A stretch of 64,000 bases of DNA from Halorientalis persicus (GTDB lineage: Archaea > Halobacteriota > Halobacteria > Halobacteriales > Haloarculaceae). The stretch is from the NCBI RefSeq assembly GCF_900110215.1, contig NZ_FOCX01000004.1, forward strand, positions 1 through 64,000, read 5' to 3'. Position 1 is the first letter of the stretch. Every line of letters starts with the position of its first letter. The position numbers were made by a program, and so were the translations under genes. Positions 44,884 through 48,920 of this stretch are shown here, piece by piece. The notes under the pieces were generated by a model that was given only the letters and a program-made list of their open reading frames with translations, had not been told where the DNA came from and did no database searches.

Positions 44884-45840
44884 ATGACCAGCCTCGGCAC
44901 GGCGACTGCGGCCCCCGGCGAGATCGACACCGGGCGGCTGTTCGTCGGCGAGACCCGTGACGGCACCGAGGTCGGACTGCCGGTCGCGGTCGTCAACGGT
45001 GCCGACAGCGGGAAGACGCTCTACGTGCAGGCCGCAAGCGACGGCGACGAACTCAACGGCGTCGGCGTGATCCAGCGCCTCGTCCCCCAGCTCGACCCCG
45101 ACGAGATCGCCGGCACCATCCTGATCGTCGGGATCGTCAACTACCACGCCTTCCAGGTCGCCGAACACCGCAACCCGGTCGACGACACGAAGATGAACCG
45201 GACCTACCCCGGCGACGAACGGGGCACCTCCAGCGAGCGCATCGCCGCCGCCACCTTCGACGCCGCCACTCGCGCCGACCTCATTCTCGATCTCCACCAG
45301 GGCTCGACCTCCCGGATGATCGACGAGTGCCGCGTCCGGTGTGGCCCGCGCCACCGCCTCCACGAGGAGTGTCTCGAACTCGCCAAAGTCTTCGGCTGTG
45401 GCTACATCCTCGACCAGAAAGGCCCCGACGGCCAACTGGCCCGCGCCGGTCCCGACGACGGCATCCCCACTATCGACCCAGAGCTGGGGGGCTGTGTCGG
45501 CTGGGACGAGACCTCCATCGAAATCGGCGTCCAGGGCGTCCAGAACGTGCTCGCGTACTACGGCTTCACCGACGAGACCCACGTCCCCGACCCCCAGACC
45601 CGCGCCAGCGGCTTCGAGCAGTACGGCGCGCCCGCCGGCGGCCTCGTCTCCTTCGAGAAGGATCTCGGCGATCGTGTCTCCCGCAACGATACTCTGTTCG
45701 AGATCACCGACGTGTTCGGCCAGCCCAAGGCCGAAGTCACCGCCGACTCTCAGGGCGTGTTCTGGCGCACTCGCCGCCTCCCGCAGGTCGCGACCGGCGA
45801 GTACGTCTGTTCAGTCGGGACGGACGTGGACAGCTATTGA
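44884..45840 (+). CDS. Aspartoacylase/succinylglutamate desuccinylase family protein
   Basis: A 318-residue zinc-carboxypeptidase-like hydrolase. The second Zn-ligand region is DLILDLHQGSTSRMIDE, and RNPVDDTKMNRTYPGDE is the substrate-binding Asn-Arg region. The usual first ligand motif HGxExxG is replaced by AASDGDELNG. A beta-rich C-terminal domain (about 235-318) has GAPAGGLVSFEKDLGDRVS. The substrate is unknown. The start at 44884 is taken as ATG; upstream reading is non-coding. Confidence 0.78.
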   Translation: MTSLGTATAAPGEIDTGRLFVGETRDGTEVGLPVAVVNGADSGKTLYVQAASDGDELNGVGVIQRLVPQLDPDEIAGTILIVGIVNYHAFQVAEHRNPVDDTKMNRTYPGDERGTSSERIAAATFDAATRADLILDLHQGSTSRMIDECRVRCGPRHRLHEECLELAKVFGCGYILDQKGPDGQLARAGPDDGIPTIDPELGGCVGWDETSIEIGVQGVQNVLAYYGFTDETHVPDPQTRASGFEQYGAPAGGLVSFEKDLGDRVSRNDTLFEITDVFGQPKAEVTADSQGVFWRTRRLPQVATGEYVCSVGTDVDSY

Positions 45841-45903
45841 TTCTCGTCCGCCGTTCTGTGTGCTACCAAAATAGCGAACTGGAAGGCGTGTCTGGTATCG
45901 GCC

Positions 45904-46413
45904 ATGTTACCGGAAATGCGTAGCGACGCGACGTGGTCCTTCCGCGAAGGTCGAGCTATAATCGAACAGAAAGGGCTACTCGATGACCTACCGACTATCG
46001 CAGGGGCGTTCGATGCGCACGGCGGGGGAAACCAGAATTACACCGCTCGGGCCGACGAACTCAATCCGCTGGGTTGGGAACAGGAGGTATCCGCGCAGTT
46101 CGAGGCGTTCACGGCCGACGGAACCGCCTCCCGTCGTGCGAGTTTCGACGCGTACAAGGACGGTGTGTTACTCGAACACGAGCGCGGTGAGCAGATGCGT
46201 GCGAACTGGCATCTGCTCAAAATGGAGGCGGCGTACCGGGACCCCCGTGGGTTCGACGACAGATACCACGCAGACGTTGCCGTCCTTCTCATTCCCGATT
46301 ACGTTAATTTCCCGACGCTAGAGCGAACTGAAAACGACGTGCAGGCTGTTTTGGCGAACTACTTCGGATTCTCCATCCCGCTGTTCGTCTGGCAGTACCC
46401 AACAGAGGACTGA
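45904..46413 (+). CDS. Orphan protein with possible PD-(D/E)XK nuclease-like core
   Basis: A 169-residue soluble protein of unknown function. The segment RASFDAYKDGVLLEHERGEQ followed by MRANWHLLKMEAAYRD and YHADVAVLLIP resembles the layout of BglII/BstYI-type restriction enzymes, where an Asp, an acidic ExE/ExK pair and a hydrophobic strand form the active site. The resemblance is by eye only. No methyltransferase is adjacent. Codon use is less G+C-biased than in its neighbours, suggesting recent acquisition. The start could be ATG 45904 or ATG 45916. Confidence 0.5.
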   Translation: MLPEMRSDATWSFREGRAIIEQKGLLDDLPTIAGAFDAHGGGNQNYTARADELNPLGWEQEVSAQFEAFTADGTASRRASFDAYKDGVLLEHERGEQMRANWHLLKMEAAYRDPRGFDDRYHADVAVLLIPDYVNFPTLERTENDVQAVLANYFGFSIPLFVWQYPTED

Positions 46414-46518
46414 CTACCGTATCCTCGTCTAGTAGCTTCCGGATAATCTCCACACCTCGGTCAGAGATCACTGGATGCTGTTACTCATCCCCGACCGCAC
46501 CACGACCGCTTCCACACT

Positions 46519-46560
46519 CCACAGAAAGTACTTACCGCTGACAGCTACAGCACCCGCATG
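46519..46560 (+). repeat. 42-base upstream element, copy 1
   Basis: CCACAGAAAGTACTTACCGC continues through TGACAGCTACAGCACCCGC to the ATG at 46558. It is identical to 47112-47153 except for one base (G versus A). GAAAGTACTTACC lies about 30 bases before ATG and could be the promoter core. Confidence 0.75.
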
Positions 46561-47043
46561 GACTGGGACCGGGGGACGTGGCTGGTCGCCGTTGGAATTC
46601 TCATGCTCGCCGTCGCGGCTGTCGGCGGCTTCGTCGTCTTCGATTCCGACTACGTCCACGAACTCCAGAACGACTCTGCGGCGTTCGACGCCTCGACGGA
46701 GGGGCACCTCCACTACGCGAACCTCTCCGAACGCGGGCAGGAAGCCGTCGACCGGACCATCGAACGGGGCGAATACGTCGTCGAAAGCGAGGCCGAGACC
46801 GCACCCGAGTTCATGTATATCGATGATGGCGATGGCCGGTACGTCGTCCAGCGCGACGGCCGTGCCTACGAGATCACGACGCACCGGGAGGGGCCCGGGA
46901 TGGGACTCCTCTGGTTCCCTGCGATGCTCCTCTTGCTTCCGCTGGGGATGGCGGGGGCCGCTTGCATCGTGGCCGGGATAACTCTCGTCGCGTTCGATGC
47001 GTACCGACGGCGAACCGCGGACAGACCGCCTGACGAGAACTGA
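46558..47043 (+). CDS. Membrane protein of a tandem pair (first)
   Basis: A 161-residue protein with an N-terminal membrane segment (LVAVGILMLAVAAVGGFVVF), an extracytoplasmic domain (about 27-115), and a C-terminal membrane hairpin (LLWFPAMLLLLPLGMAGAAC). The central motif HYANLSERGQEAVDRTIERG then EYVVESEAETAPEF is nearly the same in the next gene. Function unknown. Each gene of the pair has its own copy of the same upstream element. Confidence 0.65.
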   Translation: MDWDRGTWLVAVGILMLAVAAVGGFVVFDSDYVHELQNDSAAFDASTEGHLHYANLSERGQEAVDRTIERGEYVVESEAETAPEFMYIDDGDGRYVVQRDGRAYEITTHREGPGMGLLWFPAMLLLLPLGMAGAACIVAGITLVAFDAYRRRTADRPPDEN

Positions 47044-47111
47044 ACTCTTTCACCACCCGGGGTGCGTTGGCCCGTCCTCCTGCCAGCAGCACTGCGTCCG
47101 CATCTGCACCG

Positions 47112-47153
47112 CCACAGAAAGTACTTACCGCTGACAGCTACAGCACCCACATG
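47112..47153 (+). repeat. 42-base upstream element, copy 2
   Basis: This is the second copy of the element at 46519-46560, 41 of 42 bases identical, again ending at the ATG (47151) of its gene. Both copies keep the same distance to the start codon, which points to promoter function. Confidence 0.75.
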
Positions 47154-47606
47154 GACCTCGGCCGCGGGCGACTCATGGTGTTCGTCGGTGTCGTCTTGAT
47201 CGTCGCCGTCGCCGCCGGTGGATTCGTCCTGTGGGATACCGACTTCGTCCACCGTGGCGAACCCGCCTCGGACGAGTTCAACGCGTCTCAGAAGGGCCAC
47301 CTCCGCTACGCGAATCTCTCGGAACGCGGACGGACAATCGTCGACCGAACCGTCGAACGCGGCGAATACGTCGTCGAAAGCGAGGGCGAGACTGCGCCCG
47401 ATTTCAGATATACGACTGATCACTCGGGTCCAGGGATAGGTTGGTACCTCGTCCAGCGCGACGGTCGAGTCCACGAGATCACGACGTACCGGGACAGCCC
47501 GGGCTTCGTGGCTCCGGTTCTGACCATGGTGGTACTGTTTCCCCTCGCCATGCTCGGGAGCGCGCTCCTGGCGTTCGGTGCGTGGCGGCAGCGAAACGAC
47601 GACTGA
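47151..47606 (+). CDS. Membrane protein of a tandem pair (second)
   Basis: A 151-residue paralogue of the preceding gene with the same plan: an N-terminal membrane segment, a domain containing RYANLSERGRTIVDRTVERG then EYVVESEGETAPDF, and a C-terminal hydrophobic hairpin ending in a basic tail. Conservation is highest in the central motif and lower at both membrane ends. No family function is known. Confidence 0.65.
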   Translation: MDLGRGRLMVFVGVVLIVAVAAGGFVLWDTDFVHRGEPASDEFNASQKGHLRYANLSERGRTIVDRTVERGEYVVESEGETAPDFRYTTDHSGPGIGWYLVQRDGRVHEITTYRDSPGFVAPVLTMVVLFPLAMLGSALLAFGAWRQRNDD

Positions 47607-47612
47607 CGCGAC

Positions 47613-48920
47613 CTATCGCTCGGGATGCGTTTCCCCGTCGAACCCACCTCTCACTAACGGCTTCGCGATATGCCGTCGCGCACACGGCGGGACCTCGTAC
47701 CACCCGCGTTCGAGGTCGCGCGCTATCGACTGTTCGACCTTCCCGTCGGCGCTGGTCCCGCAGTCCCGACAGCGATACCCCGCGTTCGCGCCCGCACTCT
47801 TCATCGACCGCCCGCACTCGGGACAGTCCGGGGTGACCAGTGCCGTGGTATTCAGGTCGCGAACGGCGAACTTCTCCAGCTTGCAGGTCCCCTCGCTGAC
47901 CTCCCCACAGACGGTCAGACGGTCGCCCACGCGGAGCGCGCGCACGCGGTCACGAAACCGCTTGGTCGGCTCGAACGCCGCACACCGGAGCGTATCGACC
48001 GCCGCGTCCGGGAACCCGAGCGTGAAGAAGACGTGCCCGCCCTCCCAGGTTTCGGGCCCCTCGACGACCTCCCCGGTGACGCGGACGGCCTGATCCTCGG
48101 CGATGCTGTCCGGCTCGACGCTCCGGAGGTGCTGATCGGTCCCCTGATTCGTGACGAACGTCGCCCGGCGCGCGACGGGTTCGCTCTCGATGGCTTCGGC
48201 GGCCGCCTCGACGCTCTCGCGGTCGTCACCGCGGATGCCGTACAGCACCGGGCCCGGTGTATTCGGGACACAGACCGCTTCCCCCTCGCCGCGGTCCACG
48301 GTGTCCCAGATGTCGGGGTAGAACTCTTCGGCCACCGAAAAGACCGATTCGGGGTCCACGTCCCGCTCGCTCCCCCAGCGCTCGCGCTCGCGGTAGGTCA
48401 GGCACTCGTAGGTCCAGTCCGCGGGCTGGGCCACGGGACCTCTATCGCTCAGTCCCGCCCACGCGCCGGCGGCCGCGCTCGCACCGACGAGCCCGCGACC
48501 GTTCCCCCAGCCCCGGTAGCGGTAGCCACCCGCGTCGAGGGGGTCGCGCACATCGGTCTCGGGGTCCAGAACCTCCTGGATCGCCCGCCTGGGGAGCGTT
48601 CGGAGCCAGTCAGACTTCGCGCCGAGGTCGTCCTCGGTCACCACGACGCCGGGATTGGTCCGGTCGTCGGCGGTCTCGGCGGTCTCGTCCACGAGGGTCG
48701 TCGCCAGCTCGAAGGCCTCGTCGACGCCGAGATCACAGTGGACTGCCAGCGCGGCGTTGCCCCGCGTCTTGTACTCGACGGCCGGGTTGAGTCGGATCAA
48801 GAGCAGGCGCTCGACGTTGCCGCCCGCCCGGCGCACCCGCTCGGCCAGCACGGCGGCGGCGTAGGTCGTACACATCCCCTGGGTCCGGGAGTCGGTGTCG
48901 TCCAGGCCGACGATGGTCAC
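47613..48920 (-). CDS. tiaS: tRNA-Ile2 agmatinylcytidine synthetase
   Basis: A 435-residue archaeal enzyme that puts agmatine on C34 of the AUA-reading tRNA-Ile. The N-terminus is MTIVGLDDTDSRTQGMCTTY with the ATP/Mg-binding DDTD. RLNPAVEYKTRGNAALAV and GLVGASAAAGAW belong to the catalytic part. An OB-fold region (about 270-355) and a C-terminal zinc ribbon (CPECGRS...CRDCGTS, about 368-393) follow. All parts of the family are present. It is divergent from the HTH regulator gene. Confidence 0.92.
   Translation of the reverse strand: MTIVGLDDTDSRTQGMCTTYAAAVLAERVRRAGGNVERLLLIRLNPAVEYKTRGNAALAVHCDLGVDEAFELATTLVDETAETADDRTNPGVVVTEDDLGAKSDWLRTLPRRAIQEVLDPETDVRDPLDAGGYRYRGWGNGRGLVGASAAAGAWAGLSDRGPVAQPADWTYECLTYRERERWGSERDVDPESVFSVAEEFYPDIWDTVDRGEGEAVCVPNTPGPVLYGIRGDDRESVEAAAEAIESEPVARRATFVTNQGTDQHLRSVEPDSIAEDQAVRVTGEVVEGPETWEGGHVFFTLGFPDAAVDTLRCAAFEPTKRFRDRVRALRVGDRLTVCGEVSEGTCKLEKFAVRDLNTTALVTPDCPECGRSMKSAGANAGYRCRDCGTSADGKVEQSIARDLERGWYEVPPCARRHIAKPLVRGGFDGETHPER

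Follow-up and report, generated by a model that had tools for sequence, protein, structure and literature searches.

A promoter-like element under ordinary constraint precedes both members of a diverged tandem membrane-protein gene pair in Halorientalis persicus

The window analysed here, a stretch of 64,000 nucleotides at the start of contig NZ_FOCX01000004.1 of Halorientalis persicus, contains two consecutive genes for predicted small membrane proteins, each preceded by nearly the same short piece of DNA. At this locus the closest named relatives are Halorientalis pallida, H. regularis and the Halorientalis MAG LUM.68. Searches of the organism's own genome covered the whole assembly (4,869,758 bases, 121 contigs). 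The features are as follows, with negative positions counted back from the ATG and G003 denoting another Halorientalis genome.

44884..45840, + strand: AstE/AspA-type deacylase gene (PF24827), a conserved upstream neighbour
45904..46413, + strand: 169-aa orphan gene, occupying the place of the relatives' 3'-end hairpin
46519..46557, + strand: upstream element of copy 1, 39 nt, abutting the ATG at 46558
46523..46534, + strand: BRE-like AGAAA and TATA-like GTACTTA of copy 1, at -35 to -24 (consensus from PMC4983044)
46558..47043, + strand: copy 1, 161-aa membrane protein; its orthologues in H. pallida, H. regularis and MAG LUM.68 are single-copy genes
47112..47150, + strand: upstream element of copy 2, 39 nt, abutting the ATG at 47151
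47116..47127, + strand: BRE/TATA-like core of copy 2, at -35 to -24
47151..47606, + strand: copy 2, 151-aa paralogue; a second copy is also present in G003 and absent in three other species
47613..48920, - strand: TiaS gene, a conserved downstream neighbour

The 169-aa gene at 45904-46413 has protein relatives in 4 of 58 genomes, its own genome counted: G069 has two full-length ones (65% identity), G005 one interrupted by stops and G063 a partial one. It matched nothing in Pfam or PADLOC. An Rfam search of 45800-48400 returned Chlorobi-1 at 46174-46233 with E 0.06 and 18.9 bits against a cut-off of 50, and this below-threshold match was set aside as chance.

Both proteins of the pair have a hydrophobic segment at each end and between them an acidic loop of about 80 residues carrying two N-x-S/T sequons, and the motifs YANLSERG and EYVVESE, around which the original prediction had built the family, are found in copy 1 and copy 2 alike. 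The two terminal hydrophobic segments and the acidic loop make a surface protein plausible; copy 1 has a basic C-terminal tail, which under the positive-inside rule points to a topology with the loop outside, and a structural or binding role at the cell envelope would be a guess. Structure prediction for copy 1 (5 sequences) gave a mean pLDDT of 55, with only the two terminal helices fairly confident. Of 293 genomes of the order searched with a profile, 87 contain relatives, representing 34 of 78 genera. Three further family matches lie in the same genome as the pair (contigs C20, C47 and C103), and the core pattern of the family, as read from alignments, is Y-x-(N/D)LS, F-x-Y-x-x-D and Y-x-V-x-x-x-G-x-x-Y. 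Nothing in Pfam, NCBIfam or PADLOC scored above cut-off for either protein. The two are members of a haloarchaeal family that evolves fast and matches nothing in Pfam or NCBIfam. They resemble other lineage-specific tandem paralogues of small haloarchaeal membrane proteins in lying on the same strand, in having what appear to be their own promoters and in being gained and lost between species, but differ from these in having no Pfam or NCBIfam family above threshold.

The genes and their upstream elements lie where the original prediction had placed them, and the 42-base stretches that end with the ATGs at 46558 and 47151 are identical apart from a single difference at -2 (G or A). The full element matches nowhere else in the 4.87 Mb assembly: a search with the element recovers copy 2 with E 1.1e-15, the next match having E 0.08. 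A 20-base core with at most 3 mismatches occurs twice in the window against 0 times in 100 shuffles, and the near-identity at the two places is far beyond chance. Across the coding DNA, by contrast, 31% of the 441 aligned sites (147 codons) differ between the copies, with dS 0.69, dN 0.33 and a protein identity of 56%. At fourfold sites 27 of the 50 shared differ, compared with 1 of 39 upstream positions. Fisher's test separates the upstream sites from all coding sites with p 2.6e-5 and from fourfold sites with p 4e-8, both values being uncorrected and the sites not independent. Beyond the 39-mer the likeness ends: the next 41 bases are unrelated, 29 of them differing in an ungapped comparison. 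Equal similarity across the whole genes, which would have pointed to a simple recent duplication of the pair, was therefore not what we found. Such a duplication would suit genes that are alignable, in tandem and on one strand, but it is refuted, to the point of being very improbable, because the copies are so diverged in dS and protein identity; copy 1 is, besides, nearer to the orthologues of other species than to copy 2.

Seven genes are preceded by the element, namely copies 1 and 2, the H. pallida, H. regularis and LUM.68 orthologues, and both members (G003a and G003b) of a tandem pair in G003. In H. pallida, H. regularis and LUM.68 the gene is single-copy with tiaS directly after it (read from the translation in LUM.68, whose contig ends there), and the G003 pair is followed by tiaS, also antisense. 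In a further genome, G004, contig C18 carries two diverged homologues and contig C20 one more; the upstream bases at C18:247478 and C20:153361, the two that were read, lack the full element. A DNA tree unites copy 1 with the H. pallida, H. regularis and LUM.68 genes at 100/100, and G003a joins this group at 85/89. Copy 2 and G003b fall outside the copy-1 group, their pairing being without support, and they stand together in a partitioned tree that carries no support values. Judging from these sequences, the simplest history would be a single duplication before the species split, with the second copy lost in three species, and the tandem pairs of H. persicus and G003 would then have a common origin; the duplications in the two genomes may also have been independent. 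As a separate observation, the C-terminal part of G003a (L013) is like copy 2 at 27 of 37 residues and like copy 1 at 20 of 38, and its first 90 alignment columns are nearer copy 1, a mosaic that hints at possible recombination between paralogues.

Among the seven sequences, 27 of the 39 element columns are invariant. The corresponding coding figures are 8 of 31 shared fourfold sites and 39, 74 and 84 of 140 third, first and second codon positions, respectively, the element not differing significantly in invariance from first or from second positions. The fitted partition rate of the element is 0.36, compared with 0.81, 0.65 and 1.72 for codon positions 1, 2 and 3, and is thus about one fifth of the rate of third positions. 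The claim that constraint is stronger on the upstream element than on the coding sequence is borne out by these invariant columns and rates, and most of the similarity between the elements would come from long-term constraint, not from recent duplication or wholesale conversion. Selection is needed to account for it and conversion is not, because the species with a single copy keep the element.

Gene conversion between the tandem copies had been offered as the other possible keeper of their equality. The element is equally kept where a single copy has no partner, other species' orthologues carry it, A at -2 unites copy 2 with G003b, and a conversion tract stopping exactly at the ATG would be odd; conversion is not needed for the equality, and we rate it as rather improbable. 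It would nonetheless suit several details: the elements of copies 1 and 2 differ from each other at 1 of 39 positions and from the G003 copies at 4 to 9, where the fitted tree predicts about 5 to 7 differences between the two (our estimate from branch lengths), and the C-terminal part of G003a, nearer to copy 2, indicates that the paralogues may recombine. Copies 1 and 2 also have A at -37 in common where the copy-1 orthologues have G, but G003b has the same A, which may therefore be ancestral. A partial conversion adding to the likeness of the copy 1 and copy 2 elements is possible on these sequences.

The constraint was set against that at other gene starts. Control genes were predicted with a simple GC3 rule in the window plus the next 20 kb and, at the corresponding place, in 80 kb of G002 (H. 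regularis) and 80 kb of G003, and the upstream 39-mers of reciprocal best hits were compared, with a shared ATG required and no other gene within the last 45 bases; the G003 control (32 starts) leaves out the present pair, and some control starts may be wrong. Against G002 (16 starts) the median is 34 of 39 identical, and the 37 of copy 1 is reached by 5 of 16. Against G003 the median is 32 of 39, with copy 1 at 35 (reached by 10 of 32) and copy 2 at 34 (11 of 32). The 39-mer is more conserved than the next 41 bases at 26 of 32 starts against G003 but at only 7 of 16 against G002, where the upstream DNA is largely still similar and the next 41 bases are also conserved (at least 36 identical) in 7 of 16 rows. 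The constraint on the element is similar to that on other promoters in the genus and is not special; the unusual part is a fast protein beside a normal promoter footprint.

Within the element, AGAAA occupies -35 to -31 and is followed directly by GTACTTA, at -30 to -24. A profile of 201 gene starts in 484 kb of the same genome is enriched in A at -34/-33 and in T from -30 to -27, as expected for leaderless genes. With a scoring matrix trained iteratively without the two copies, and compared with the 199 other starts and with shuffles, the elements of copies 1 and 2 rank at the 74th percentile among genes and at the 99th among shuffles. The combination of an A-rich BRE near -34 and a TATA-like core near -28 is found in copies 1 and 2, H. 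pallida, G003a and G003b (percentiles 74 to 76 among genes and 99 among shuffles). In H. regularis (L008:3962-4000) and LUM.68 (L009:3962-4000) a T to G change at -26 gives GTACGTA (H. regularis variant GTACGTACC), and the core ranks at only the 42nd percentile among genes and the 73rd among shuffles; so low a score is odd, and counts against the TATA box as the point of constraint. The genome has three occurrences of AGAAAGTACTTA, all of them 35 or 36 bases ahead of an ATG; the third, at 36 bases, is on a different contig and precedes a short, unrelated leader ORF.

Leaderless transcripts make up 72% of the protein-coding ones in Haloferax volcanii, for which CGAAA and TTWT have been proposed as promoter motifs (PMC4983044). 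Compared with the haloarchaeal leaderless core promoters (BRE plus TATA) mapped in that species, the element is alike in its position relative to the ATG, in its TATA-like core and in the loss of conservation upstream of about -36, and AGAAA is close to CGAAA. It differs in that GTACTTA, altered in two of the species, fits TTWT poorly, and in that the spacer is more conserved than in most controls. A literature search on Halorientalis promoters found no paper. Our preferred reading, to which we give a probability of roughly 0.78, is that the element is an ordinary core promoter of a leaderless transcript, retained after an ancient tandem duplication, the start of transcription and the binding of factors being those that the sequence suggests. 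An RNA structure within the element was considered and rejected, its folding energy being weaker than that of most shuffles (z +1.2). It is scarcely credible that the element is instead a coding N-terminal extension in frame with the gene: the frame is open through it in all seven copies, yet copy 1 has no upstream in-frame ATG, GTG or TTG, and the changes in the element fall 3, 6 and 3 over the positions of the upstream frame with no third-position excess, as judged by eye.

The original prediction had proposed a dedicated promoter or regulator site. The promoter-like character of the site is upheld, whereas the dedicated regulator finds no support, the conservation being normal for a promoter and no other gene among 97 genomes carrying the site. 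Searching other genomes for the element, as had been proposed, gave matches only before this gene or its tandem copy among 97 genomes. With one mismatch allowed, AAAGTACKTACCGYTGACA has 6 matches in 4 of the 97, each exactly 33 bases before this gene or tandem copy, and across the same set the core-plus-spacer pattern stands before no unrelated or dispersed gene, where a regulon operator would be expected. There is no dispersed regulon in these data, because AAAGTACKTACCGYTGACA is limited to this gene and AGAAAGTACTTA is absent from contigs C20, C47 and C103, which hold the other family members in the genome. A regulator that binds the spacer (-22 to -6) and controls both copies together is, in our view, unlikely. 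What speaks for it is that these bases are almost invariant, more so than a bare core promoter needs, with identities over -22 to -1 of 22/22, 20/22 and 19/22 in three orthologue comparisons, and that in H. regularis and LUM.68 the spacer is unchanged, or altered at a single base, despite the changed core. The controls, however, equal 22/22 in 4 of 16 cases (G002) and 20/22 in 8 of 32 (G003), and 19/22 against G003 is reached by 9 of 32, placing the pair in the upper part of the control range; no palindrome or repeat is reported inside the spacer. A more elaborate version, somewhat less likely still, would make the 17-base spacer the operator of a Halorientalis-specific regulator that holds both envelope-protein paralogues under one control and outweighs the TATA box.

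Two observations stand beside these results. In H. pallida, a 3'-end hairpin (L007:3815-3870) lies between the deacylase gene and the copy-1 orthologue. It belongs to a family, absent from the window itself, in which constant flanks, CCACTTTTT...GCAAAAACnTGGGGAAAAA, enclose a variable GC stem (further loci L110, L111, L113, L127-L135, L137-L146 and L151-L170). DNA like the H. pallida hairpin is present in 8 of 8 Halorientalis genomes, with 4 to 28 matches each, and the exact flanks occur in 21 of 77 haloarchaeal genomes and 12 of 46 genera, a reversed-pattern control giving 0. A stop triplet lies in the preceding 14 bases in 21 of the 23 Halorientalis hairpins (from 24 loci, one off-pattern), where chance would give about 4 in 10, and 2 follow tRNA-like 3' ends, as judged by eye. 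Among the hairpins in other genera, 11 of 21 come after an open frame of at least 20 codons ending no more than 30 bases away, and some of the remainder come after tRNA-like ends. The three loci searched gave no Rfam match. The family is possibly a bidirectional transcription terminator, for which it is a candidate, and it is of more interest than the promoter finding; in H. volcanii, a T5C motif terminates at 95% (PMC7237163). The second observation concerns the third genomic AGAAAGTACTTACC (contig C65, L003:1503-1660), which precedes a 12-codon ORF followed by an inverted repeat, CCACGCGTCCGG / CCGGACGCGTGG (fold z -3.2), and then by a 79-aa ORF, an arrangement resembling a structured leader that carries a small upstream ORF.

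Under the core-promoter reading, an ancient tandem duplication within Halorientalis would have taken in both a small membrane-protein gene and its core promoter, and each copy would have a promoter of its own, with TFB and TBP binding AGAAA-GTACTTA about 35 to 24 bases before the ATG. The transcript would start at the ATG or within a few bases of it, which would place the whole promoter in the last ~36 bases. Purifying selection would keep this stretch, as for most genes here, and the protein would meanwhile evolve fast, in its membrane helices and linkers above all. As such the finding is ordinary: the duplicated gene evolves fast, and the core promoter next to it is constrained to the normal degree. 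The locus also draws attention to a family of haloarchaeal membrane proteins that has no match in Pfam or NCBIfam. In these archaea a whole functional promoter would fit within about 36 bases ending at the ATG, and with the promoter so confined, it and the gene can differ widely in their rates of evolution.
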